Assembly (NCBI GenBank): GCA_010672925.1
Contig: JAAHFP010000052.1
Location: 1-41,052, forward strand
Source of the DNA: Symploca sp. SIO1C2
Lineage (GTDB): Bacteria; Cyanobacteriota; Cyanobacteriia; Cyanobacteriales; Coleofasciculaceae
DNA: 41,052 bases
Reading direction: 5' to 3'
The translations under genes and the position numbers were made by a program. This document shows positions 3,617 through 31,662 of the stretch, one piece after another. Position 1 is the stretch's first letter, and each line of letters opens with the position of its first letter. Below the pieces are notes generated by a model that was given only the letters and a program-made list of their open reading frames with translations, did not search any database and was not told where the DNA came from.

Positions 3617-3829
3617 ATGAAATTAGACCGCATCACGATTAATCCTGCTTGTATGAATGGACAGCCCTGCATCCGTAATCTTCGTCTTACTGTTCGTCGG
3701 GTTATTGAATTACTTGCAACCTATTCCAACCGAGAAGAACTATACCAAGAGTTTCCTGAATTGGAAGATGAGGACATTCAACAAGTTCTTATCTATGCCT
3801 CAACACGGGAATCGCACTGCTATAATTAA
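3617..3829 (+). CDS. DUF433 antitoxin, orphan
   Basis: A 70-residue protein of the DUF433 family, winged-helix-like antitoxins usually paired with DUF5615 PIN-like toxins. The signature ITINPACMNGQPCIR followed by LTVRRVIELLA and a C-terminal 'EFPELEDEDIQQVLIYAS' matches the two complete DUF433 genes of this window (20941-21165 and 36334-36564). No DUF5615 gene follows: the next 70 bases are non-coding and contain a dispersed repeat. The toxin seems to be lost. Confidence 0.8.
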   Translation: MKLDRITINPACMNGQPCIRNLRLTVRRVIELLATYSNREELYQEFPELEDEDIQQVLIYASTRESHCYN

Positions 3830-3902: not shown

Positions 3903-4118
3903 ATGATGACAAAAGCAACCTTTGCAGAAATCTTAGAATCGGCGGATCAGCTTCCCCTTGAAGACCAAGAAAACCTTATTCTTATTTTACAAAGCCGTCT
4001 TCGCGATCATCGAAGAGCTGAGCGAGTTAGGGATGTTCAAGAAGCTGAAAAAGAGTTCGCTGAAGGTAAATGTCAACCAGCTACCCCTGAACAACTTATG
4101 AAGGAAATTCTTGCATGA
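3903..4118 (+). CDS. Small antitoxin, partner of RelE-like toxin
   Basis: A 71-residue, strongly charged and mainly helical protein ('ILESADQLPLEDQENLILIL' near the N-terminus; 'EKEFAEGKCQPATPEQLMKEILA' at the end). The pattern and the ATGA-type overlap with the toxin gene (ATG at 4115, stop at 4116-4118) are those of cyanobacterial antitoxins paired with RelE/YafQ-type toxins. Translational coupling is likely. It should bind and neutralise the toxin and repress the operon; this is inferred from family and position. A second ATG lies one codon downstream. Confidence 0.7.
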   Translation: MMTKATFAEILESADQLPLEDQENLILILQSRLRDHRRAERVRDVQEAEKEFAEGKCQPATPEQLMKEILA

Positions 4119-4396
4119 AATTTGTTTTACTCCCTTCGAGTGCATTTGTCAGGGAGGCCAGAAAAATTGTCAAAAAGAATCCCCAAACAGCTCAAAATAT
4201 TCAGAATACTGTAGAGTTATTGTCTACAGAACCATTTAACCCGCGATTAAGAACCCACAAATTAAAAGGTGAGCTTCAAAACTCTTGGGCTTGTAGTGTT
4301 GGATATGACTTAAGAATTATTTTTAAATTTGTTGAATATGAACAAGCGTAAGCAATTCTTTTAGAATCAATTGGGACTCACGACGAAGTTTATTAG
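4115..4396 (+). pseudogene. RelE/YafQ-type toxin cut short by an in-frame stop
   Basis: Residues 1-78 (MKFVLLPSSAFVREARKIVK ... LRTHKLKGELQNSWACSVGY DLRIIFKF) are a typical RelE/ParE-fold mRNA interferase. A TAA at 4349-4351 stops the frame after EQA. The same frame then continues AILLESIGTHDEVY to a TAG at 4394-4396, which is the expected C-terminus of the family ('SIGTHDEVY'). The gene thus differs from an intact one by a single stop codon, removing the last strand with its conserved histidine. The toxin is probably inactive unless the stop is read through. The antitoxin upstream is intact. Confidence 0.8.
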
Positions 4397-4444
4397 ATTA
4401 ACGCGATCGCACGGCAATTCACATTAGATCGAAGTCGTTTTCCG

Positions 4445-4493
4445 CCTCGGAATTAATTCCGAGGCTTATAGCGTAAGTCGTCTAAAGACGACT
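4445..4493 (+). repeat. Two-palindrome 49-bp repeat, copy A
   Basis: A 20-bp perfect palindrome CCTCGGAATTAATTCCGAGG (4445-4464) is followed by the 11-nt linker CTTATAGCGTA and an 18-bp perfect palindrome AGTCGTCTAAAGACGACT (4476-4493). The first palindrome extends to 22 bp with the flanking G and C. Copies B (4543-4591, minus) and C (12857-12905, plus) have the same lengths and linker but different arm sequences. Confidence 0.9.
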
Positions 4494-4542
4494 GGTAATG
4501 ATACGGGTTAATTTCAATTATTAGGAATAACTATCTATTTTC

Positions 4543-4591
4543 AGTCCGTTTTAACGGACTTGAGCTATGAGCCTTGAAATTGATTTCAAGG
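4543..4591 (-). repeat. Two-palindrome 49-bp repeat, copy B
   Basis: On the minus strand: 20-bp near-palindrome CCTTGAAATCAATTTCAAGG (9-bp arms with a CA centre, 4591-4572), linker CTCATAGCTCA, then 18-bp AGTCCGTTAAAACGGACT (8-bp arms, 4560-4543). It is inverted relative to copy A and 49 bp away from it, with the two 18-bp hairpins facing each other. Confidence 0.9.
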
Positions 4592-4599
4592 TGGTGTAA

Positions 4600-4611
4600 C
4601 GGTTGCAACCG
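4600..4611. repeat. Short palindrome
   Basis: CGGTTGCAACCG, a perfect 12-bp palindrome 8 bp beyond copy B of the 49-bp repeat. Possibly part of the same composite structure. Confidence 0.4.
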
Positions 4612-4623
4612 GTATGTCTTCCA

Positions 4624-4662
4624 GAGTGGTAATTGCTACCTGTTGGATACAAATGCGATCGC
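4624..4662 (+). pseudogene. vapC 5' fragment, duplicate of the one at 4984
   Basis: 39 bp that match 4984-5022 at 37 of 39 positions. It corresponds to codons for SGN-YLLDTNAIA, the start of a PIN-domain VapC toxin. No ATG and no upstream antitoxin remain. It lies in the non-coding stretch 4397-4767, which otherwise holds only the two 49-bp repeats and a dispersed repeat. Two such fragments suggest duplication of a decayed vapC or loss of two related toxins. Confidence 0.65.
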
Positions 4663-4767
4663 TTGCGATATTCTATACCCTCTTCTTTTCCTTTGTAAAC
4701 TTTGTGCCTGGTATGGTTCCTTTATTTAAGATAGAATAATTAAAGGTCTATTATGTGTACCTGAATA

Positions 4768-4992
4768 ATGGACGTTGTTAAGCTAACCACAAAAATTGAC
4801 GAATATGGTTGTTTGAACCTGAGTATTCCCACACAATTAGCGGGGACTGAGGTAAATGTTGTCGTGGTGGTGAATCCAGTGGCATCATTTGAGAAGCCAC
4901 AACATCAGTATGATTTCTCAGATTTAGTAGGTAAATTAACCTGGCAAGGAGATGCCGTTACCATGCAGAGGAATCTTCGGGATGAGTGGTAA
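4768..4992 (+). CDS. VapB-like antitoxin
   Basis: A 74-residue protein with an N-terminal AbrB/SpoVT-like strand pattern (VVKLTTKIDEYGCLNLSIP, then TEVNVVVVVNPV) and an acidic/aromatic C-terminal half (DLVGKLTWQGDAVTMQRNLR) of the kind that wraps a PIN toxin. The end of the gene overlaps the ATG of a vapC fragment at 4982, the normal arrangement for vapBC operons. The antitoxin reading frame is complete; the partner is not. Confidence 0.65.
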   Translation: MDVVKLTTKIDEYGCLNLSIPTQLAGTEVNVVVVVNPVASFEKPQHQYDFSDLVGKLTWQGDAVTMQRNLRDEW

Positions 4993-5068
4993 TCGTTACC
5001 TGTTGGATACAAATGCGATCGCACTTACGCAGAACATCTACAAGTACTATTTTCTCGACAATGATTGA
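4982..5068 (+). pseudogene. Truncated vapC (PIN toxin) fragment
   Basis: ATG at 4982 overlaps the end of the VapB frame. The 28 codons begin MSGNRYLLDTNAIAL, the standard PIN-domain N-terminus carrying the first metal-binding Asp (LLDTN). The homology then ends abruptly near 5025 and the frame reaches TGA at 5066-5068. The rest of the toxin is missing. The breakpoint lies at the 3' end of the convergent NTPase gene, whose stop is at 5047, so the arrival or rearrangement of that operon may have removed it. Confidence 0.75.
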
Positions 5069-7182
5069 AACTTTCGTGATTCTGCTAAAATTGGGTTAAT
5101 GTCAAACCACTGCCCGTGGAGATCGCGGTATTCAAAGACAAACATACTGCGCATTAGAATATTGTGTTCTATATCATCTCTGAGAGTTTGTTTTTTCATT
5201 ACCTGAAACAGCAACTCCCACTCATCATCATCAATCGATGAGAGTAAGTAGTACCGGCGATCCCGAATCGCTACTTCTAAAGCTTCCCGAGAGAAGGGAG
5301 GGTCGTCTTGCATAACACAACCTAACAGTAACCCTAGCAAGTTCCGCAGGTGACCGCCACTAATACTGCAAAGACGATCTAGAGTTTCAGGAGTATCAAA
5401 CACCTCTAGAATTAACTCCGGTAGTTTTTCTAGACTTTCATCAGGAAAAGCTCTTACCATAACCATCTGCCGCAGCAATTCCATCCCCTCGGTATGTTCC
5501 TCACCATTCTGCCGTTTTACCGGCACCATCGGCAATACTTTAGGGGGAATGCCACCACCTAAACGGTCTTTGAGAATTTCACAATCGTTGGAAAAAGTTA
5601 ATTCTAGGGGAATTGTATAAACAACGTGGCAATTGAGCTTGCGTAGTTGATCACCCCGGTCAATAAAGAGATATTCTTGTTGCGATCGCCCGGAGGGTAG
5701 AGGACGAAAATCTACCCGATCCAGATTATCCACGAGCAGCACTAATCCTGCTTTACCTCGTTGTTTTAAAGCAGTGTTGGCTTTTCCTAAAAGTTCTTGA
5801 TTAATCGAATGTAAAATTAAACTGGTGCGGGGTTCTAGGTACTGCCTTAATCGACGTCGGAGTTTAGGAGATTCTTTGGTTTTAGTAGTGATTTTGCCAA
5901 TATTAATTGATAGTTCTGCCTCAGTGGAGAATCCTATTGGTATTTGCAAAAAACCAGCAATCTCGGTAAAAAGATTAGCAAAGAAGCCTGGATGCAGACG
6001 AATGTTATTTGATTCTACACTTTCGCTAACCTTACCAGCAATACTCAGTAAAATATCTGTTACATCAACATCTGCCATGTCTATATCATAAGATGATTCA
6101 AAATAAACTACATGGAATCCCTCTTGCTCCAAGTCAGATTTGAGCCGGAGCAATTCGGTGGACTTACCGCAGCCAATATGACCAGTAAACAGTTGGCAAG
6201 TAGGTTTATCGGGTGAAATTACCGCAATATGGTGCTTGAAGGTCTTAATGATGTCACTGCTTCTGACAGAAGAAAAGTCAATGTAATATTGCTGGTTTTT
6301 GACAGGCTGACTGGGATTACAAGCCTTATAAAATATCGGTAGATCTAAGGTAACTGACTGTATCTTAGCAGATTCAGAATCTTTCCGTAATTCAGTAGTC
6401 TCTTCTAAATTTTCTAGCCACTGGAGGAGAACAGGAGAAAGAAGTTTTAAATTTCCTTCTCCCATCTTAGTTTGATCCTCTATTTCTTGCTCTTGATGAA
6501 TTTTTCGCTTTAATTCCTCCTCATTTCCATAGAGCATTTGTGCTAATACTCGTAAATTATTGATTAAATATCGATACTCTGTCAGCAGATTTGTTTGTTC
6601 AAGCGGCTCAGCTAACATTTCCAAAGTTGTAGCAATTTGAATTGTCTCTGGCACATATAGGGGATTGTCCTTTTCAGACAAACTTGACTCGAGCAAATTA
6701 GTCATATCTTCAACAAGCTTATCCGGATCAAGATAAGCCTGAGCAATCCACCTTTGAGTACGAATTATTTCTGAACGCAGCTTCAAGTCAGACTTATGAG
6801 CTAAATAGAACTTTAAAAACTTGGCTAACCCAAACGGACGTTCAAAACCAAAGTGATTCTCCAACTCCACTAACAATACTTCCCGTACCGATGGCTCAAC
6901 TTCATATAAACCCTCATCAATCGGACGACACAAAGGGGAAAGCAAAAAATCCACTTCAGCCACCCAAGGAATTTGTTCCTCTTCCAGAAAATTGAGATGA
7001 ATTAAATTAACCAATTCCGGAGTCAAAATCAGCGGCAAAGCAGCATGACAAGCTAACATCAAATGCTTAGCACCAAACCGACGCTCAAATGCCAAAACTT
7101 CCCGCACTGCCAACTCAGGAGACAACCATTGTTCCCTAACTAAACTAGGAGAAGTAATAATCTCTTCGAGGGTCTTACTCAT
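5047..7182 (-). CDS. P-loop NTPase of MoxR-vWA ternary system
   Basis: 711 residues from ATG 7182. The N-terminal ~170 residues (RRFGAKHLMLACHAALPLIL, 'LYEVEPSVREVLLVEL', 'RTQRWIAQAYLDPD') form a conserved cyanobacterial domain seen beside caspase- and vWA-type genes. A charged middle region leads to a STAND/KAP-like ATPase with Walker A GHIGCGKST (about 334-342) and Walker B LVLLVDNLDRVD (about 480-491), then a winged-helix-like C-terminus (GGHLRNLLGLLLG). The ATG overlaps the vWA stop (ATGAGTAA) with GGGAG 9 nt upstream; a TTG at 7191 is a weaker start. It occupies the VMAP/NTPase position of ternary conflict systems and probably senses or relays a threat signal. Confidence 0.75.
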   Translation of the reverse strand: MSKTLEEIITSPSLVREQWLSPELAVREVLAFERRFGAKHLMLACHAALPLILTPELVNLIHLNFLEEEQIPWVAEVDFLLSPLCRPIDEGLYEVEPSVREVLLVELENHFGFERPFGLAKFLKFYLAHKSDLKLRSEIIRTQRWIAQAYLDPDKLVEDMTNLLESSLSEKDNPLYVPETIQIATTLEMLAEPLEQTNLLTEYRYLINNLRVLAQMLYGNEEELKRKIHQEQEIEDQTKMGEGNLKLLSPVLLQWLENLEETTELRKDSESAKIQSVTLDLPIFYKACNPSQPVKNQQYYIDFSSVRSSDIIKTFKHHIAVISPDKPTCQLFTGHIGCGKSTELLRLKSDLEQEGFHVVYFESSYDIDMADVDVTDILLSIAGKVSESVESNNIRLHPGFFANLFTEIAGFLQIPIGFSTEAELSINIGKITTKTKESPKLRRRLRQYLEPRTSLILHSINQELLGKANTALKQRGKAGLVLLVDNLDRVDFRPLPSGRSQQEYLFIDRGDQLRKLNCHVVYTIPLELTFSNDCEILKDRLGGGIPPKVLPMVPVKRQNGEEHTEGMELLRQMVMVRAFPDESLEKLPELILEVFDTPETLDRLCSISGGHLRNLLGLLLGCVMQDDPPFSREALEVAIRDRRYYLLSSIDDDEWELLFQVMKKQTLRDDIEHNILMRSMFVFEYRDLHGQWFDINPILAESRKFQSLSRK

Positions 7183-8278
7183 TAATACCAACTCCCGCAG
7201 GAAAGGGATGTCCCCGCAAAATATTCACCGCATCATTCAATCCCTCTCGGTGCAAAGGAAACATCGGCATCATACAGGCGATATCTTCAGCAGTTGTTGC
7301 TACCCAGCGATTTTCAGGCATGGGATTGAGCCAAGTGTAGAGATAAGTGTAGGTACTGAGGTTTTGGACAAAGGTTTTGGTATCCTCTACTCGCCTTCCA
7401 TCATAATAGCCACGAGCTGCCCCTGCATCGCTAATAATTAGTACACTATTACCCTGATGCTCATCCAAAACTGTTGATAAAGGTAGAGCATGGGTTAAAT
7501 TAGGACGTTGATAGAGAAATCCTTCTGGACAATCGTGAAAATAGTAGATACTAGTCTTACCCAGTAGTCCTCCCCGTAAAATACTCTCAATTGCCGCTTC
7601 AATCAATGGAGCAAAGGGAGCCATTGAACCCTGCTGATCCACTAATACCACCAATCGGGCTTGGTTGCGACGGCGGGGTTGTAATATAGGGCGTAACAAT
7701 AAGCCTGTGTGACAGATGCTGTTAATCGTAGCTTCCACATCCAACTCTTCCAGGATACCTGTTCGTTGAGGACGATGCAGTTGCCGCCATACCCCTGCCA
7801 TATCTCGCCGACTAATGGGTAAACGGGGTGTTAACTGGTAGTAATGGGGTTCCTCGGCTAGTTCAGATTGTAAGATAAATGACTGTTTTACAGAGCTAGA
7901 AGGTAATGTTACGCTCACTTCTTGGGGTTCTGGTTCTTTTTCCGGTTCTAGTTGAGGTTCAGGCTGAGGTGGAATTTGCTGAGGTGGAACCGTTGAAGGT
8001 GTAGAAGCAGGCTCAGAGGTAGGAATTGCTTGAGGTGTAGAGTTAGTTTGCCATTGGGATTCTATCAATTCTGCAAAAGCCAGATCAAATAATTCCTGGT
8101 CTTCTCGTGATTTTGCCCAGAGTAAGCGAAACAATCCTTTAAAGCTAGCAGCATCTTCCAATCCAACTCCTGCCTGAATTGTCTCAATTGCTTCCAAATA
8201 ATCCGATACCCCCAGCGGTACACCCTGTCGGCGTAACCTCTCAAAGACTTGAAACAGTCGTGGGGGTATGTAGGGCAT
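7175..8278 (-). CDS. vWA domain protein of MoxR-vWA ternary system
   Basis: 367 residues. Residues 1-75 are a helical domain (YIPPRLFQVFERLRRQGVPL ... FKGLFRLLWAKSRED) typical of vWA proteins next to MoxR ATPases. Residues 80-125 are a Pro/Glu-rich flexible linker. The vWA domain (about 145-360) has its metal site at D214-Q-Q-G-S218, so the middle residue of the usual DxSxS motif is Gln, and a second Asp in IISDAG (D284). MoxR ATPases remodel such vWA partners. It lies 129 bp downstream of moxR and overlaps the NTPase gene by 8 bp. Confidence 0.85.
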   Translation of the reverse strand: MPYIPPRLFQVFERLRRQGVPLGVSDYLEAIETIQAGVGLEDAASFKGLFRLLWAKSREDQELFDLAFAELIESQWQTNSTPQAIPTSEPASTPSTVPPQQIPPQPEPQLEPEKEPEPQEVSVTLPSSSVKQSFILQSELAEEPHYYQLTPRLPISRRDMAGVWRQLHRPQRTGILEELDVEATINSICHTGLLLRPILQPRRRNQARLVVLVDQQGSMAPFAPLIEAAIESILRGGLLGKTSIYYFHDCPEGFLYQRPNLTHALPLSTVLDEHQGNSVLIISDAGAARGYYDGRRVEDTKTFVQNLSTYTYLYTWLNPMPENRWVATTAEDIACMMPMFPLHREGLNDAVNILRGHPFPAGVGINE

Positions 8279-8397
8279 TAGGGCGACAATTTAAGTAGAC
8301 AGTCCCAAGTATATCAATCCAAATGTTATACTGCTACGCAAAGGCCCAAACCCCTTGCTAAGTGTGTTTCTTAAAAGACTTAAGCTTAGATTTATTC

Positions 8398-8415
8398 AAT
8401 CTAAAATCTAAAATT
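8398..8415. repeat. Heptamer repeat (TCTAAAA)n at the moxR 3' end
   Basis: Two and a half copies of the 7-bp unit TCTAAAA (plus strand; TTTTAGA on the minus strand). The TAG stop of the MoxR gene (8408-8410) lies inside the repeat: the last codons read AAT AAA CAA TTT TAG. The array sits in the 129-bp gap between moxR and the vWA gene, the only wide gap in this operon. Confidence 0.8.
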
Positions 8416-9355
8416 GTTTATTAAGAGCCTCGCGATCGCTCTGAGTTTTCACCAAAGTTTCCAAATAAGGCAAATTTACAGGATCCGTGCTTGCTAACTC
8501 TGCCGCTGTCAGCTTTTTCCCTTGCTGCTCCCTTTCCAAAATTGCGACCCAATCCAAAAACTCACTAGTTCCCGGTATTTTACGCCAACTTCTCAACTCC
8601 CGTAATTCCCAGAACTTTTGCACAGCCACTTCAAACAAAGGAGTCAGCTTCGGTTGAAAATGGCTTTGCAGAATCTGTTCGAGGGTATTTTGATCAGGAA
8701 ACTCGATATAGTAAAACAGACAACGGCGTAGAAAGGGTTTAGGTAGCTCTTTCTCCCGATTACTGGTGATGATGATTAGGGGTAAAAAGTCTCGCCTTGC
8801 CTTCCTCGTTTTACCTTGCAAGGCATCATACCTCATCTCCGACACTTCCTTAACTTGGAATTGCAACCGATCCAACTCCAGTAGCAAGTCATTGGGAAAA
8901 TCGATATCCGCTTTATCTATTTCATCGATTAAGACTACCGAGGGAATATCATCTTGAGATTGAGCGATCGCATTTCCCAACTCCCCCAAGGTAACATAAT
9001 CCTGCCGTGAGGGAGCTTTAGTCGGATTATCCCCTACTTTTCCCTCCTGAATATCATACAGCCGCCCCAAAGCATCATAATCATACAGTAAATCCTGGGC
9101 CCGACTGGTAGAGCGGATGTAGCAGGGATGGAGAGGATAACCCAATTCGTAAGCCACAGCATAAGCCAATCGCGTCTTGCCACAACCAGGATCGCCTTCC
9201 AATAATAAGGGACGCCGCAAGTAGAGAGCAGTATTGACAGCATCCACTAGAGATTGAGGAGCAATATAAGGCTCCGGTTCTTGCCATGCCTTGGGGAGTA
9301 GCTTGTAGTGACAGTCTCCCTTGCCTGTGTACAATCGTTGGGCTAAGTTATCCAT
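8408..9355 (-). CDS. MoxR-family AAA+ ATPase
   Basis: 315 residues, the normal size for MoxR ATPases. Walker A GDPGCGKT (54-61), Walker B VVLIDEIDKAD (140-150), sensor-1 TSN (197-199) and the Arg-finger region LPKPFLRR (204-211) are all present. It is expected to form a hexamer that remodels its vWA partner encoded next. The start ATG at 9355 overlaps the stop of the upstream EAD-iSTAND gene by 8 bp (ATGGATAA), so translation is coupled. The stop codon is provided by a heptamer repeat. Confidence 0.93.
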   Translation of the reverse strand: MDNLAQRLYTGKGDCHYKLLPKAWQEPEPYIAPQSLVDAVNTALYLRRPLLLEGDPGCGKTRLAYAVAYELGYPLHPCYIRSTSRAQDLLYDYDALGRLYDIQEGKVGDNPTKAPSRQDYVTLGELGNAIAQSQDDIPSVVLIDEIDKADIDFPNDLLLELDRLQFQVKEVSEMRYDALQGKTRKARRDFLPLIIITSNREKELPKPFLRRCLFYYIEFPDQNTLEQILQSHFQPKLTPLFEVAVQKFWELRELRSWRKIPGTSEFLDWVAILEREQQGKKLTAAELASTDPVNLPYLETLVKTQSDREALNKQF

Positions 9356-10469
9356 AGAGTCGAGAACTTCCCTGTAGTTCGTGGATAATGTGATTCAATT
9401 CTTGATAAGTCCCGATTAAGTCACCATTTATGTTGCGCAGCCGCTGGAGATAATGCTCAATCTGTTCTTCTCTTATTCCTTCCCTTTGGAGGCGATTGCG
9501 AAACCAAGACGACAAATCCAGCGGTTCAAACTTGTTCAGAGTTGGCAAGGTAGTAAATCCAGTCATTCTAGGTAGGCGACGTTTACCAACATTTGCCCAA
9601 ACCATAACCAAACAGCGGCTCTGATTCTTTAAATAGGGTGAGACACAATAACTGATCTTAGTCCAAAAATCTTGAGCTAATGGCTTCATAAATTTATCGG
9701 GAATATCGTAATTCCAGATAATCATTACAATATCAGTGTTTCCTTGAGTATCCAATAGCTGGATAAAATCTTCAAATTGGTAATTACTGAAAAATTCACG
9801 CTCTATATCCATTGAGGTGGTAATCCTTCGGCGGTAGAGTCTGATGTGTAGCTGTTCATTCTGCCGTCCAGTTTTCCTTTTCAACTCCCGCCGCAGCCGC
9901 TCAATGATATATTGCTCTAAAATTGTGCTATGACCCCCAATAATAAAGACAAAGGCTCCTTCATATCCCACTTTTTGCCTGAATTCTGCCATCTGAACTT
10001 CTAGGTCATAGTCGATAATTACATCTCGGTCTACTTTAATTGGTAGTTCACCTGAAGCTACTGTAGAGTATTTTTGACGTCCTTGAGCCAGCAAATTAGC
10101 AATTTTATTTTGTGGCGTTTTCTGAGAACTAAATTGCTGTTGCTGTTCCCATTTCCGAATCACATGATTGATAAAACCCTGATCTTCTGAAGATATACTG
10201 TTATCGATCGCACTGAGATATTCTAAAAAAATGACTAAACCCAGTCTTGGGCAACCACAAACCGTAGGGTGAACTTCTGAGAGCTGTTGACAAAGGATAG
10301 TGACAAATGCTAACTGGGGTTGATCTAACTGAATCAGACTACAATATTGTTTAAGACCACAATTAGTTAACAAAGCACTACGGAACTCAGCATCAGCAGT
10401 TTTCAGGCTTGTTTTATGGGTAAGGATTTTTTGAAGTTGGACTCTTTCTGTAAGGGTTAGGAACTTCAC
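9348..10469 (-). CDS. EAD-iSTAND protein, first gene of the ternary system
   Basis: 373 residues. Residues 1-110 are the same effector-associated domain as in the metallophosphoesterase at 2216-3526 (shared LQKILTHKT, RSALLTNCGL, PRLGLVIFLEYLSAID, KWEQQQ). After a linker, residues 165-373 look like an inactive STAND NTPase (iSTAND): the strand FVFIIGG is followed by HSTILEQY where a Walker A Gly-Lys-Ser/Thr would be, so ATP binding is probably lost. Later strands include DIVMIIWNYD and RCLVMVWANV. In described ternary systems the EAD links this core to effectors with the same EAD. It starts the four-gene operon. Confidence 0.75.
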   Translation of the reverse strand: MKFLTLTERVQLQKILTHKTSLKTADAEFRSALLTNCGLKQYCSLIQLDQPQLAFVTILCQQLSEVHPTVCGCPRLGLVIFLEYLSAIDNSISSEDQGFINHVIRKWEQQQQFSSQKTPQNKIANLLAQGRQKYSTVASGELPIKVDRDVIIDYDLEVQMAEFRQKVGYEGAFVFIIGGHSTILEQYIIERLRRELKRKTGRQNEQLHIRLYRRRITTSMDIEREFFSNYQFEDFIQLLDTQGNTDIVMIIWNYDIPDKFMKPLAQDFWTKISYCVSPYLKNQSRCLVMVWANVGKRRLPRMTGFTTLPTLNKFEPLDLSSWFRNRLQREGIREEQIEHYLQRLRNINGDLIGTYQELNHIIHELQGSSRLYG

Positions 10470-10660
10470 AGTTGATCATCAAGGTGAATAAGGCAGCATG
10501 ACATAATCTTCATTTGTTGCTTATTGGCAATCAGCCTACGATTATAACTGATTCCCTTTGTGACCGAAAAAAAAACAAGGATACAAGCCCCCGGATTTAT
10601 CCGTGGAAAAAACAAAGATTTTATCATTATTCCAAGCCCCTGGCTTTAGACATGGGGTCA
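10470..10660. other. Intergenic DNA with two hairpins like IS200/IS605 ends
   Basis: Two similar G/C-rich hairpins follow each other: 10589-10606 (CCCCGGATTTATCCGTGG, 7 of 8 pairs) and 10637-10657 (CCCC-TGGCTTTAGACAT-GGGG, imperfect). Each is preceded by CAAG and they resemble the subterminal hairpins of IS200/IS605-type elements. No tnpA or tnpB is present. I regard them as possible remnants only. Confidence 0.3.
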
Positions 10661-10691
10661 ATCTAAAATCTAAAATCTAAAATCTAAAATT
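10661..10691. repeat. Heptamer repeat (ATCTAAA)n
   Basis: Four copies of the 7-bp unit, directly at the end of the truncated Uma2 gene. On the minus strand it provides that gene's TAG stop (GTC AAT CAA TTT TAG). Same family as at 8398, 26817, 30507 and 31601. Confidence 0.85.
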
Positions 10692-11031
10692 GATTGACTC
10701 CGGGTTCTACGGGAAAGACGGAAGGAATATAAAACCAGTCTGGTGCTTTGACCACGATTTTGTTGTTAACAGTGGCACAAATCCCCAAGTTAGAACCAAT
10801 GAGCATATCAGGAGTAACAAATCCTGCTAAGTCAAGAATTTCTCGTAAAGCAGCAGCCTGGATGGGTTGGTAGATATTTTCCACGGGATCGTCGGGTAAG
10901 ATAAAGTCTGCTGGTAGTTTTTCCCATTGGATTTTGGGAATGACTGTGGTTGGGGTGGATAAGGTAGCAGTCATAAGTACTTTGGGTGAATACTGGCAGC
11001 TGGCTTGGTGAGCATTTGAGGTAGATATCAT
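10684..11031 (-). pseudogene. Uma2-family nuclease, N-terminal third only
   Basis: 115 residues matching the start of Uma2 (DUF820) PD-(D/E)XK nuclease-like proteins, which are very numerous in cyanobacteria: WEKLPADFILPDDPVENIYQ, then MLIGSNLGICATVNNKIVVK, then APDWFYIPSVFPVEPGV. Homologues continue for at least another hundred residues that carry the catalytic site; here the frame ends in NQF-stop at the heptamer array. The truncation point coincides with the repeat. ATG 11031 has GGGAG 4 nt upstream; Met20 is an alternative. Probably non-functional. Confidence 0.7.
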
Positions 11032-11045
11032 GGAACTCCCTAAGT

Positions 11046-11954
11046 TTACAAGGCTTCGATATCTTCCCTAGAAAGTTGGGTTATTGCCATAATAGTCTCC
11101 ACATCTAAACCTTGTTGCTTACAGGCGCGGGCAATTGCTATTGTTTTTTGTTCAACTCCTTGTTGAATGCCTCGTTGCATGCCTCTAATTTCTGCCTGTT
11201 CAATCTGTTCAATTTGCCATTGCGCCTCAAACTCTTGGGTACTCCTGATACTTGCTTCGTAACTCTTGTTTTCCATGTAGCGCTTGTATGCTGCTCTTTC
11301 TTGTTCTGATAAATTATTTACTCGCAAGGTTTCCTTGGCTTCTACCATTCCTTTCGCCGCAAATTCCTCTTTGATCTCGCTATTTCTCAGAAAATAGATC
11401 CATTCCTGTAGGGTAGTTTTCGCTTCTCCTTTAAAATTCCTTACTTTTAGCAGGTAATATTCTGGAAAGATATCTGCTACTTTTACTATCTTATATCTTT
11501 TTTCTTGAGCTGGGGTAGGTTTGAGAACCTCTCCGTTATTCATCCCAACGAATTCTGGACGCAGACGATAAATATAGTCATCCCCCTTACCAAGGTTGAA
11601 GTAGACGATATTTACCGAGTAGATTTTCCTAATTTTGCCGTATTCTTGTCCTTGTTCGAGATATTCGGTGACTAGCTGAGAAACACCGTAGAGCATACGA
11701 TGAAAATAATCGAGTTGGGAGTTGTTTTGTACTTCGATAAGGATTAACTCGGAGTTTTGAGTTTCAGCGAGAATATCTACGCGGTTGGCTTTATCCTCCT
11801 CGGTTTGTTGGTTACTCTCACTTTCAAGAAGGGTTTTGATCTTGAGGTCTTGATTTAACAACTCACTTAGAAACCCTTCCAAGACTACATAGTTAGCTTT
11901 ATTGCGCAGTATTTTTTTAATAGCCCAATCAAAGCGAGTATGTTTGTGTGGCAT
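11046..11954 (-). CDS. Rpn-family recombination-promoting nuclease (PD-(D/E)XK)
   Basis: 302 residues. The N-terminal two thirds match Rpn/PDDEXK_2 proteins: FDWAIKKILRNKANYVVLEG near the start, then D60 in RVDILAE and E74-x-Q76 in LILIEVQ, the family's modified D...ExQ active site. A mid-section (YFNLGKGDDYIYRL) and a charged coiled C-terminus with GMQRGIQQGVEQKTIAIARA are also usual. These proteins are transposase-related DNA endonucleases; in cyanobacteria they are multicopy and of unclear role. It ends 14 bp before the Uma2 fragment, on the same strand. Confidence 0.85.
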   Translation of the reverse strand: MPHKHTRFDWAIKKILRNKANYVVLEGFLSELLNQDLKIKTLLESESNQQTEEDKANRVDILAETQNSELILIEVQNNSQLDYFHRMLYGVSQLVTEYLEQGQEYGKIRKIYSVNIVYFNLGKGDDYIYRLRPEFVGMNNGEVLKPTPAQEKRYKIVKVADIFPEYYLLKVRNFKGEAKTTLQEWIYFLRNSEIKEEFAAKGMVEAKETLRVNNLSEQERAAYKRYMENKSYEASIRSTQEFEAQWQIEQIEQAEIRGMQRGIQQGVEQKTIAIARACKQQGLDVETIMAITQLSREDIEAL

Positions 11955-12077
11955 CGTCGGTATGCTATTTCCACTACTAATATTTTAGCTAAAGTAGGGT
12001 TTTCAGAGCCGCTCTTTAACCTAACTTACAAGATTAGCGATCGCTCTCATTGTAGATAGTCGGGTAAGATAGTCATA

Positions 12078-12791
12078 CTATCGTTTAGATTGAGCAATCT
12101 GCTCTTGTGTAAGGTTTTTAACGTCCTGACGATATGCACCTGCAAGATTAGCTTCATCAAGTAATGCCTCTTGTAAATTAGCTTCATGAAGTAATGCCCC
12201 TTGTAAATTAGCTCTATTGAGGATTGCCCTTTGTAAATTAGCTCTATCGAGGAATACTCCTTGTAAATTAGCTTCATTAAGGAATGCCCCTTGTAAATTA
12301 GCTCTATTGAGGAATACTCCTTGTAAATCAGCATCATCAAGGATTGCCCCTTGTAAATTAGCTCCATAAAGGGTTGCCCCTTGTAAATTAGCTCTATCGA
12401 GGAATACTCTTTGTAAATCAGCATCATCAAGGATTGCCCCTTGTAAATTAGCTTTATAAAGGGTTGCTCTTGCAATGTCAGTATTACTTAAATCAATGTT
12501 CTGATTCTCTGATTCTTTCTCCGTATCGCGTCTTCCGATAACAGTAAGAATAGCTATGCCGCCAAAACCCGTTACGTAAGATTGAATGGATGTAATAACT
12601 GACTTGATTGCCTGATTCCTAAGCTCGAAAAAATCTTTGATATCCAGGATTGACTCTTGCTGAACAATTGGAGTGACATTCAGCCCCCAAAGGTAATACG
12701 AAAGTGCTAACAATCCCACAACAAATAAAATGAACGAAATCAGTAACCAAGGTATTATTTCAGTCAAATTATTAGTTTTATTCTCGCTCAT
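12078..12791 (-). CDS. Membrane-anchored pentapeptide-repeat protein
   Basis: 237 residues. Two hydrophobic segments (WLLISFILFVVGLLALSYYL at about 15-34 and FGGIAILTVIG at about 76-86) precede a run of A(N/D)LQx(A/V) pentapeptides from about residue 105 to 225, which should form a right-handed quadrilateral beta helix in the cytosol. The DNA repeats every 15 bp (TTGTAAATTAGCT motif on the plus strand), so other frames are open too, but only this one gives the pentapeptide pattern with a membrane anchor. Function unknown; it may act as a scaffold. Confidence 0.85.
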   Translation of the reverse strand: MSENKTNNLTEIIPWLLISFILFVVGLLALSYYLWGLNVTPIVQQESILDIKDFFELRNQAIKSVITSIQSYVTGFGGIAILTVIGRRDTEKESENQNIDLSNTDIARATLYKANLQGAILDDADLQRVFLDRANLQGATLYGANLQGAILDDADLQGVFLNRANLQGAFLNEANLQGVFLDRANLQRAILNRANLQGALLHEANLQEALLDEANLAGAYRQDVKNLTQEQIAQSKR

Positions 12792-12856
12792 GACACCTAA
12801 TCTACGAGTAATATCATGTCTGCTTAATTACCTATAACGCTTAACTTCCCCACCCA

Positions 12857-12905
12857 CCCAGAGTTTAAACTCTGGGCTAATAGCTAAAGTCCACTTAAGT
12901 GGACT
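12857..12905 (+). repeat. Two-palindrome 49-bp repeat, copy C
   Basis: 20-bp palindrome CCCAGAGTTTAAACTCTGGG (12857-12876), linker CTAATAGCTAA, 18-bp palindrome AGTCCACTTAAGTGGACT (12888-12905). It lies between the pentapeptide gene and kaiC3. Same architecture as copies A and B with different arm sequences. Confidence 0.9.
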
Positions 12906-12975
12906 GAAGATTTTTGGAAAGATTGAGTCAGCAACCCCCCTTATTCGCCTCTTAGTAAGGAGGGAAACTCCTGTC

Positions 12976-25987: not shown

Positions 25988-26830
25988 ATGAAACCTAAAC
26001 GTCAAACCTTATCTCTACCTGATATCGAGCTATCCTATTTAGAATGGAACCAATCCCAGGAACCTCTACTGTTGTTGCACGGCTTAGGTGATCATGCTTT
26101 GGTTTGGTCAAATTTGGCAAATTACCTTAGCGATCGCTATCATATTGTTGCACCAGATATGCGGGGTCATGGGGAAAGTAGTAAACCTGAACAAAATTAT
26201 CGCTTTACTGATGCGATCGCTGATTTAGAAGCCTTAATGGAACATCTTAATTGGCATGCTGCTCATATAGTTGGTCATTCTTGGAGTGGGAAATTAGCAC
26301 CCATCTGGGCTAAGCAACATCCAGAACGTTTTCTGAGTATGATTCTGGTAGACCCCATTTTTATCAGTAGGTTACCTAGTTGGTTTAAAATTACCTTTCC
26401 TCTGTTGTATCGATCCTTATCTTTTCTCAAAGGTATGGGACCATTTGAGAGTTACGAACAAGCCGAAGAGCAAGCACGTCAGTTAAAGCAATATCAAGGT
26501 TGGAGTTCCTGGCAACAGCAGGTATTTCAAGCAGGAATCGAACAAAAAGTCAATGGTAGTTGGGGCAGCAAATTTACTGTTCCGGCTCGCAATCAGATTT
26601 TTGAGGAAGTAATGCAGGTCAATGGTCTTACCGAGTTTATTGATATTGCGACTCTATTGGTGCTTCCAGAAACCGGTGTCAACCGCCTGGATTGGCAACT
26701 CAAACCCTATAAAACCTATCTGAAAAAACTGAACATTGGCCAAGTTCCCGGTAATCATTGGCCATTTTTAGTACAACCAGAGGCTTTTAACCAAACTGTG
26801 GCAACTTTTTTGGAGGATTTTAGATTTTAG
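25988..26830 (+). CDS. Alpha/beta hydrolase
   Basis: 280 residues, cytosolic. Oxyanion-hole region LLLLHGLGDHALVW, DMRGHGESSKP, nucleophile S98 in GHSWSGK and catalytic His H257 in PGNHWPFL are in the right order; the acid is probably the Asp in ILVDPIF or a later one. The family covers esterases, lipases and haloalkane-type hydrolases, and the substrate cannot be told. The last residues DFRF and the TAG are encoded by a (TTTTAGA)n array. It follows a CATTCTC repeat block that ends at CTCATG. Confidence 0.85.
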   Translation: MKPKRQTLSLPDIELSYLEWNQSQEPLLLLHGLGDHALVWSNLANYLSDRYHIVAPDMRGHGESSKPEQNYRFTDAIADLEALMEHLNWHAAHIVGHSWSGKLAPIWAKQHPERFLSMILVDPIFISRLPSWFKITFPLLYRSLSFLKGMGPFESYEQAEEQARQLKQYQGWSSWQQQVFQAGIEQKVNGSWGSKFTVPARNQIFEEVMQVNGLTEFIDIATLLVLPETGVNRLDWQLKPYKTYLKKLNIGQVPGNHWPFLVQPEAFNQTVATFLEDFRF

Positions 26831-26854
26831 ATTTTAGATTTTAGATTTTAGATT
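26817..26854. repeat. Heptamer repeat (TTTTAGA)n at hydrolase 3' end
   Basis: Five copies of TTTTAGA. The hydrolase stop TAG (26828-26830) is part of the second copy. Same family as 8398, 10661, 30507 and 31601. Confidence 0.85.
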
Positions 26855-30184: not shown

Positions 30185-30950
30185 AGTAGTTTGGTAATAA
30201 CCACTGCATTTAGGACTTTTGTAATTGCCTAAAACATCAAAAGTTTATTTTTAACAGATAAGTCTGGAATTTTTGGCAAAAAAATTTATAGATCAACCCA
30301 TCTTCATTGAGTTCGAGGTCAAGCAATTGAAGATTGAAGATTGAAAATTTTAGATTTATACTAAATCCGATTTATCAGTAGCCTTTCCAGGATTGGCTAA
30401 TCAGCTTCTAGATTAAGTTCTGTTTTTGAGGTAGGGATACTCTGTCAACCGGATTTGGTATTATTCCCTAAATAAATTTAGGAGCTTGTGACCCTTTTAA
30501 TTCTTCAAATCTAAAATCTAAAATCTAAAATCTAAAATTTTTCTGGTCATCATTGATTTGCATGACGAAATCATGAAAGATCATCGCCCAAGCTGCTTCC
30601 CTATAATTTTTTTCTGTGATAAAAGTTAAAAGCTTGTATTTTTGACCAGATGCGTTGACCCTGAAGCAATCTACTAGATGCCCACTATAATTACCATTAA
30701 AACATCTTTAATTTAAGAATAGGTAAAATTTGTTGATTCAGAGCAGCCCTAGGGGTGACAATTGCCACCCGCTATGAATCAAAAAAACACTACTTCCTGC
30801 CTCCTGACTTGAAATAGACGCGGGGACACGGGGACGCGGAGACGCGGAGAGAGGAATTGTCATGCATGGTGGGGTGGTGAGTGAAAAAATTGTTCATCAG
30901 GACTACCTCCGGTTCCCCTCCTTGGAGGGGTTAGGGGTGGGTTCTGCCTC
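30185..30950. other. Long non-coding stretch with several repeat families
   Basis: Holds an AAGATTG repeat near 30325-30350, one arm of a 1.1-kb-spaced inverted repeat (30471-30549) that includes a heptamer array (30507-30540), the GACGCGGGGACACGG repeat (30815-30853), and a hairpin CCCCTCC-TT-GGAGGGG at 30915-30930 just past the pentapeptide stop, which might act as its terminator though it lacks a clear T-run. No ORF or structured RNA was recognised. Confidence 0.5.
30471..30549 (+). repeat. Left arm of inverted repeat around pentapeptide gene
   Basis: AATAAATTTAGG, CTTGTGACC, TTTTAATT, the heptamer array AAATCTAAAATCT and finally CTGGTCA match the reverse complement of 31591-31662 in the same order. 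This arm has one extra heptamer and a handful of substitutions. Confidence 0.75.
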
Positions 30951-31590: not shown

Positions 31591-31662
31591 TGACCAGGAC
31601 AATTTTAGATTTTAGATTTTAGATTTAAATAATTAAAACGGTCACAAGTACCTAAATTTATT
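31591..31662 (-). repeat. Right arm of inverted repeat around pentapeptide gene
   Basis: Reverse complement of 30471-30549 with small differences; contains three heptamers (31601-31627). It lies just upstream of the pentapeptide gene, while the left arm lies downstream. Confidence 0.75.

Follow-up and report, generated by a model that had tools for sequence, protein, structure and literature searches.

The cyanobacterium Symploca sp. SIO1C2 carries, in a stretch of 41,052 nt (contig JAAHFP010000052.1; hereafter the window), three copies of a 49-bp repeat, located at 4445-4493 (+), 4543-4591 (-) and 12857-12905 (+). This repeat is quite likely to be the bipartite, inverted end of a small, single-gene IS200-like transposon (HuH/Y1 type) encoding a transposase, TnpA, of subclass 1.2, and the inverted pair formed by its first two copies is best read as a non-autonomous, gene-less copy of this unit. 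The evidence lies in the linkage of the repeat to the transposase gene, the mostly inverted arrangement of the ends, the coincidence of part of the unit borders with them, the covariation of the hairpin stems, the joint divergence of linker and enzyme, and the occurrence of gene-less pairs; from these we infer that TnpA cleaves these ends.

Each copy is made of hairpin 1 (20 nt), a linker of 11 nt (CTNATAGCNNA) and hairpin 2 (18 nt). In all three window copies, hairpin 1 is a perfect 20-nt palindrome bounded by CC and GG and hairpin 2 an 18-nt palindrome bounded by AGTC and GACT, confirming the coordinates and the anatomy (20-bp palindrome, 11-nt linker, 18-bp palindrome) given in a preliminary description of this DNA. 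The linkers read CTTATAGCGTA, CTCATAGCTCA and CTAATAGCTAA in the order 4445, 4543 and 12857, and the pattern CTNATAGCKNAAGTC has exactly three mismatch-free matches in the window. When folded as single-stranded DNA, each copy formed two hairpins only, with z-scores of -6.10, -6.17 and -5.62 relative to 200 shuffles per copy. The tip T-N-A-A is present and conserved in both hairpins, which gives the two-hairpin arm a polarity. Among 120 arms located near transposase genes, which had been chosen for paired stems, conservation extended over 6 nt outside hairpin 1 (ANNCCG), with information content at background beyond.

Judged by their sequence, the three copies are of two kinds. Copies 4445 and 4543 form an inverted pair belonging to a transposase-linked subfamily, and copy 12857 is half of a decayed MITE-A, a family of miniature inverted-repeat transposable elements (MITEs) described below; the region 12796-12960 aligned to an intact 205-bp MITE-A with 109 of 154 aligned positions identical. 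The features, with the evidence for each, are as follows.

4439-4444 (+): outer tail of the left arm, 6 nt, TTTCCG (consensus ANNCCG); information-content profile
4445-4464 (+): hairpin 1 of the left arm, CCTCGGAATTAATTCCGAGG; sequence and folding
4465-4475 (+): linker of the left arm, CTTATAGCGTA; sequence and pattern search
4476-4493 (+): hairpin 2 of the left arm, AGTCGTCTAAAGACGACT; sequence and folding
4494-4542 (no strand): 49-bp interior of the inverted pair, resembling the interior of an L037 pair beside the transposase gene; alignment
4543-4560 (-): hairpin 2 of the right arm; sequence and folding
4561-4571 (-): linker of the right arm, CTCATAGCTCA; sequence and pattern search
4572-4591 (-): hairpin 1 of the right arm, CCTTGAAATCAATTTCAAGG; sequence and folding
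4592-4597 (-): outer tail of the right arm, 6 nt; sequence and information-content profile
12833-12930 (+): MITE-A remnant, one half, broken within the second arm and holding the third copy; alignment, limits set by eye
12857-12876 (+): hairpin 1 of the third copy; sequence and folding
12877-12887 (+): linker of the third copy, CTAATAGCTAA; sequence and pattern search
12888-12905 (+): hairpin 2 of the third copy; sequence and folding

Genomic copies and the linked transposase

The genome holding the window (G000; 8.67 Mb in 245 contigs) contains 152 exact matches to the linker pattern (70 + and 82 -), against one for the reversed-pattern control, and the linker conservation that the preliminary description had singled out as open to refutation is thus found well beyond the three window copies. 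A covariance-model search of the same genome returned at least 150 matches (150 of 4605 candidates scored). Arms are organized there in 37 distinct inverted (+/-) pairs, the gap between the inner hairpins being 26 bp (12 pairs), 20 (11), 25 (6), 13 (3) or one of five single values; it is 49 in the window pair. With a stricter pattern, the repeat was detected in 41 of 292 genomes of the phylum, 40 of them within the 83 genomes of the window's order; the remaining one, from outside this order, has only one copy. Arms also occur as tandem arrays with a period of about 100-220 bp at several loci (L359, L362, L365 at G064:C1:485071-485481, L216 and L037).

Fifteen loci of the host genome encode a Y1_Tnp domain (PF01797), and only one of these, L037 (G000:C46), has a repeat within 1.5 kb. 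Its transposase gene is accompanied by seven arms, distributed on both sides, whose subfamily is that of the window pair. One L037 pair and the window pair align well over a stretch that starts about 10 bases beyond the left arm and ends about 15 beyond the right, with divergent flanks further out. The 139-aa L037 protein matches the NCBIfam IS200 model (88.8 bits; cut-off 55) and Pfam Y1_Tnp (E 9.9e-28), and its score with REP_Tyr_transpos of NCBIfam (21.4 bits) is under the cut-off of 80. Compared with solved structures, a profile of its family gave eight matches at E 1e-3, all of them transposases, with IS608 TnpA as the best (E 3.4e-16). The motif YVNNQKQHH fits the signature Y---Q--HH that defines TnpA subclass 1.2 (PMC6006769), our assignment resting on this published motif instead of the profile of the original authors. 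A class 2 REP-associated tyrosine transposase (RAYT; REP, repetitive extragenic palindromic sequence) was considered as the partner and ruled out by the motif Y-x3-Q-x2-HH and by the model scores. Y...Q..HH is found in 77 of 80 named relatives, the exceptions being L218, L243 and the broken L247; these named loci are the best 80 of 519 confirmed TnpA relatives, the nearest to L037 coming from Coleofasciculus sp. LEGE 07092 (84% identical), which would place the host probably among the Coleofasciculaceae. A search for a linked REP- or IS200-type transposase had been proposed at the outset, and an IS200-like TnpA does lie beside the arms at L037 and at the loci of its relatives.

An arm recognized by its linker lies within 1 kb of the gene at 48 of the 80 named loci, on both sides in 22, and 137 of the 152 arms detected at these loci lie within this distance. 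A linker-blind search, which required only a pair of hairpins (stems of 7 or more, loops of 2-5) spaced by 6-14 nt and at most 500 bp from the gene, detected double hairpins at 61 of the 80 named loci. The corresponding figures were 3 of 57 for windows taken at 2.0-2.5 kb and 1 of 21 for loci of other Y1 genes, some of which are fragments, and dinucleotide shuffles (three for each locus) gave none. Double hairpins were also detected in this way at 13 of 18 loci outside the named set. Together, the two tests find arms at 67 of the 80 named loci. In the same-order set of 80 genomes (the 83 less three without the repeat), 17 encode a TnpA at least 60% identical to that of L037. The best loci of 15 of these genomes carry arms; the other two, L079 and L088, have none by linker, and at L088 the linker-blind search detected double hairpins. 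At least two repeats are present in 14 of the 17 genomes with the gene versus 15 of the 63 without (Fisher p 2e-5, phylogeny ignored). Transposase distance and linker distance are correlated across 49 loci (Mantel r 0.52, reached in 0 of 2000 permutations, again with phylogeny ignored). The same two-hairpin anatomy, with other linkers, was found on contigs labelled Anaerolineae (L248, L249), Chloroheliaceae (L213), Desulfobacteraceae (L243) and KSB1 (L231), which are metagenome bins and possibly misassigned, the L243 protein moreover being without the full motif. One TnpA unit with its arms, L089 (G064:C1:5765722), is situated directly downstream of a tRNA-Val gene (L089 673-746).

The arms around the gene are mostly inverted relative to each other. 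Upstream, the arm closest to the gene has + orientation at 30 of 38 named loci; downstream, the closest one has - orientation at 25 of 32. Borders were examined by comparing named loci that are similar over the gene (at least 78%), with spans of up to 1200 bp and reciprocal pairs counted twice: similarity ends within -15 to +5 nt of the outer edge of hairpin 1 in 20 of 68 comparisons on the left, and within -5 to +15 nt of the outer edge of the arm in 32 of 82 on the right. L080 and L084, for instance, are 90% identical over L080 1383-1993, the arms being at 1384-1432 and 1937-1985.

Several observations weigh against this interpretation. The co-occurrence of gene and repeat and the Mantel test are uncorrected for phylogeny, and several repeat-rich genomes (G068 with 58 repeats, G039 with 18, G153 with 13) have no TnpA match at E 1e-10. 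Neither the linker nor the linker-blind test found an arm at 13 of the 80 named loci. A second subclass 1.2 TnpA of the host genome, L036 (G000:C181:17553-17951; 73% identical to the L037 protein), has no two-hairpin arm within 1.5 kb, and a Y1 clade present in several genomes (L095-L097, about 40% identical to the L037 protein) has no arms. Orientation is weaker when assigned by a looser, loop-based rule (21 of 37 upstream and 17 of 28 downstream, with 51 of 144 arms undecided). Similarity between related loci ends more than 100 bp inside the unit in 38 of 68 comparisons on the left and 22 of 82 on the right, and reaches more than 100 bp outside the arms in 6 of 68 and 12 of 82, respectively. 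A search for empty sites, with anchors taken at about 23 of 31 pair loci (two genomes of the same genus) and with the flanks, mostly joined, of six loci (twelve genomes), revealed no clean one, whether for a TnpA unit or for a bare pair; arms were present or absent at orthologous sites, with blurred joints. Finally, most arms of the host genome owe their spread to a DDE-type element (see below).

Two of the sites compared can be described further. The flank upstream of the window pair is conserved in G293, where the downstream sequence is different. At the orthologous loci L402 and L341 (G048 and G064), the left flank and one arm coincide as far as the last base of hairpin 2, after which the sequences diverge, one genome having a pair and the other a lone arm.

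Covariation and the nature of the folded molecule

The preliminary description had proposed that the arms covary and that this reflects selection on a structure, either of RNA or of single-stranded DNA. Both the genome-wide and the cross-species sets uphold the covariation. The unpicked test considered distinct 49-mers containing CTNATAGC and located at most 1 kb from a subclass 1.2 gene, with no pairing filter. It yielded 194 distinct copies from 97 loci; three pairs of loci (L080/L200, L091/L230 and L092/L235) are each one sequence present in two collections, counts being made over distinct 49-mers. Compensatory changes were found at 9 of 9 pairs in hairpin 1 and 8 of 8 in hairpin 2, with 351 cells changed on both sides in hairpin 1 (shuffle maximum 169) and 271 in hairpin 2 (maximum 140); stem cells were paired in 76.7% and 77.4% of cases, against shuffle means of 55.5% and 60.1%. 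Within the host genome, 85 distinct copies gave 203 cells changed on both sides versus a shuffle maximum of 79 for hairpin 1, and 105 versus 55 for hairpin 2, with compensatory change at 8 of 9 and 3 of 8 pairs, respectively. A picked alignment of 25 of 37 distinct copies, from which L005, L018, L020, L028 and L030 (broken or longer hairpin) and 7 near copies had been dropped, showed 98.1% of stem cells paired and 91 cells changed on both sides versus a shuffle mean of 29.3. Arm subfamilies do exist, and they differ by compensated changes; subfamilies fixed in sequence without compensation, the alternative that the preliminary description had set against its own proposal, are therefore not what these sets contain. 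Its further statement that the pattern arose "rather than simple copying" holds in part: compensated differences separate the subfamilies, but units are also copied as mobile elements, mostly inside DDE-type mini-transposons.

If the repeat acted as RNA, for example as a terminator, a small RNA or an mRNA-stabilising element, its hairpins might be kept for that function. The presence of two stable hairpins (folded as DNA) and the intergenic location of the window pair, 93 bp downstream of a YafQ-like toxin open reading frame (ORF), would suit such a role. Stem G.T pairs are nevertheless not in excess over A.C mismatches (11 versus 23 and 5 versus 11), and thus give no sign of selection on RNA of that strand, an Rfam scan of the window gave no family at gathering score, and no T run follows the hairpins in the three window copies. 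Arms moreover occur in both orientations as inverted pairs, and are linked to one transposase type. We regard a role as RNA as very unlikely, and the evidence on RNA versus DNA leans to DNA, given the lack of G.T excess, the lack of an Rfam match and the adjoining gene for an enzyme that processes single-stranded DNA.

The compensatory changes might also have been produced at replication by template switching inside palindromes (quasipalindrome correction), with no selection for folding. The stems of hairpin-forming arms are indeed mostly Watson-Crick, and a chimeric hairpin 1 (L329) together with the hybrid elements L112 and L126 (see below) suggest exchange at palindromes. Such a process leaves unexplained the conserved linker, the T-N-A-A loops and the link with TnpA; as a full account it appears most improbable, although it can act together with the explanation based on transposon ends.

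Two other ideas were tried and abandoned. Mutual information did not support the linker as a special modular breakpoint, since hairpin 1 and hairpin 2 types stay associated. The idea that left and right arms are kept unlike to avoid one long palindrome was dropped because both arms are identical in some other genomes.

A second mobile layer formed by mini-transposons

Arms of the host genome are frequently enclosed in mini-transposons of the DDE type: 129 of the 164 examined are flanked on one or both sides by a terminal repeat of family A or B, and the other 35 lack such a repeat. Family A (MITE-A) is characterized by the terminal inverted repeat (TIR) CATTGGTGTCAACTTAA and by target duplications of 9 bp, and the genome contains 137 exact TTGGTGTCAACTTAA sites of this family. 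Among 20 family-A elements inspected (from 30 sites), the 9-bp flanks were perfect in 7, matched at 8/9 positions in 7 and at 7/9 in 2, and were unmatched in 4. Eight of these 20 elements have no linker and most of the eight are filled with unrelated sequence, indicating that the pair is a passenger. Family B, a second TIR family (CTGAGATCTTGCACCATTCTC), also carries the pair.

These elements raise the question of whether the pair might be an internal structural part of DDE-type MITEs, its nearness to Y1 genes being secondary and due to MITE landings. Besides the proportion of enclosed arms, this explanation has in its favour the 16 of 20 family-A elements with 9-bp flanks matching at 7 positions or more, the finding of a MITE-A with the pair in another genus, and the presence of MITE-A or MITE-B copies just upstream of TnpA in L185 and L170. 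It is at odds with the absence of A/B terminal repeats (searched with up to 3 mismatches) from 72 of the 80 named TnpA loci and from all 17 loci L076-L092, as well as from the transposase-linked subfamilies of the host genome (L037, the window pair and L155). Terminal inverted repeats with a target duplication, by which a MITE is recognized, were seen for the pair-carrying family A, and A/B repeats were not seen around 4445/4543. Furthermore, the pair is carried by two TIR families and is absent from several family-A MITEs, so that each can do without the other; unit borders coincide with the arms in a good share of cases, and double hairpins with other linkers lie beside TnpA elsewhere. We consider this explanation, already disfavoured, to be unlikely, and retain the arms as ends of the TnpA unit.

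Some mini-transposons have an unusual structure. L126 is a hybrid in which the pair lies between a left end of family A and a right end of family B, and in L112 the left end is occupied by a right-end module, which suggests exchange at or near the arms. Two short family-A copies of the host genome, L310 and L329 (110 and 107 bp), have a single hairpin 1 and neither linkers nor hairpins 2; they look like the result of a deletion between two hairpins 1, that of L329 being chimeric. Across the MITE-A loci L310-L338 of this genome, some copies contain the two-hairpin pair and others a filler of the GGAGCTGAGG type.

Proposed mobility, known systems and neighbouring features

A complete unit would consist of a left end (6-nt tail, hairpin 1, linker and hairpin 2), the transposase gene and the same end inverted. 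TnpA may bind both hairpins on single-stranded DNA, read the linker and the T-N-A-A loops for recognition, and cut near the outer tail, thereby moving the gene-bearing unit, or short pairs in trans. Stems would be free to vary because shape would outweigh stem sequence. Gene-less pairs, 4445/4543 among them, are scattered as non-autonomous copies, in the manner of REP doublets forming hairpins (REPINs) or bacterial interspersed mosaic elements (BIMEs). With most of the arms examined in the host genome lying within mini-transposons with other TIRs, a DDE transposase would have spread them further.

As in IS200/IS605 elements such as IS608 and ISDra2, the transposase is a Y1/HuH enzyme of the same class, the ends can be folded as DNA hairpins and the unit has a single gene. 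IS200/IS605 elements are excised and inserted strand-specifically as single-stranded DNA, and their ends, with one hairpin each, are not known to be inverted repeats of each other, whereas those described here are mostly inverted copies with two hairpins each, and gene-less pairs are abundant. With REP/BIME sequences and REPtrons (class 2 TnpA-REP, or RAYT) the arms share the large number of short palindromes, the inverted pairs and the position flanking a single Y1 gene. REPtrons have class 2 enzymes, GTAG tags and pairs of REP and inverted REP (iREP), according to PMC8266576 and PMC6006769. They differ from the present system in having one hairpin instead of two with a conserved linker, and a class 2 transposase (Y..NP) instead of class 1 (Y-x3-Q-x2-HH); in addition, the GT[AG]G tetranucleotide that lies 5' to the foot of the REP hairpin is absent here. 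The bottom strand reads TNAG before hairpin 1, and no GTAG consensus was seen in the free linker bases beside hairpin 2 or in the outer tail, in a set for which the search motif itself fixed CT.ATAGC. The "double foot" REPs of subclass 2.4 were also considered and rejected: as PMC6006769 defines them, these are long REPs with GT[AG]G and its reverse complement at opposite ends. For subclass 1.2, the same paper gives the protein motif and the cyanobacterial home found here and notes the absence of typical IS200 terminal structures, whereas the present ends have a double-hairpin shape.

Other cyanobacterial palindromes and small elements are comparable. Small dispersed repeats (SDR), which Elhai reportedly described in 2008, are high-copy cyanobacterial palindromes of 21-27 nt. 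The cyanobacterial REPs GTAG-12, -15 and -16 (PMC3733652) are likewise high-copy palindromes, with a GTAG tag that is absent here; this distinction is drawn from their text description, and the repeat may overlap with part of a family listed there. Anabaena sp. 90 has 147 MITEs, including a group depicted as having inverted repeats in three sets, together with a 682-bp element of the IS200 subgroup (PMC3542288); this group and this element may be relatives of the two-hairpin units. Among the matches listed, open-access titles and abstracts contained no description of these two-hairpin ends.

More broadly, subclass 1.2 enzymes might represent a third build of single-strand transposon ends, bipartite with a specificity linker and inverted, beside those of IS200/IS605 and REPtrons, with gene-less pairs taken over by DDE mini-transposons, possibly moved by two unrelated transposases, and arms exchanged between elements; on this wider view our opinion is evenly balanced. 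A HuH subclass on record without recognisable ends, and hence without an obvious substrate to test, is given a candidate substrate by the two-hairpin arms. Arms accompany the gene in many genera, and apparently also in further phyla, so that short oligonucleotides can serve to test how TnpA binds, cuts and chooses a strand, and a linker that tracks the transposase is a candidate code for specificity. Takeover by DDE elements shows another route, besides their own enzyme, by which such palindromes can multiply to high copy numbers, which calls for caution in reading REP abundance as TnpA activity.

The remaining features concern the neighbourhood of the repeats in the window. The YafQ-like ORF mentioned above is the second of a pair of small ORFs (3903-4351) situated 93 bp upstream of the repeat pair, and its match to the YafQ toxin reaches 28.9 bits (Pfam cut-off 30); this ORF pair is probably a toxin-antitoxin module, and is preceded by an ORF (3617-3829) encoding DUF433. 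Tandem heptamers (CTAAAAT)n, retrieved as loose matches of the linker search, occur at 10663-10684, 26816-26851, 30511-30532 and 31608-31622, and resemble the heptameric short tandem repeats of cyanobacteria.

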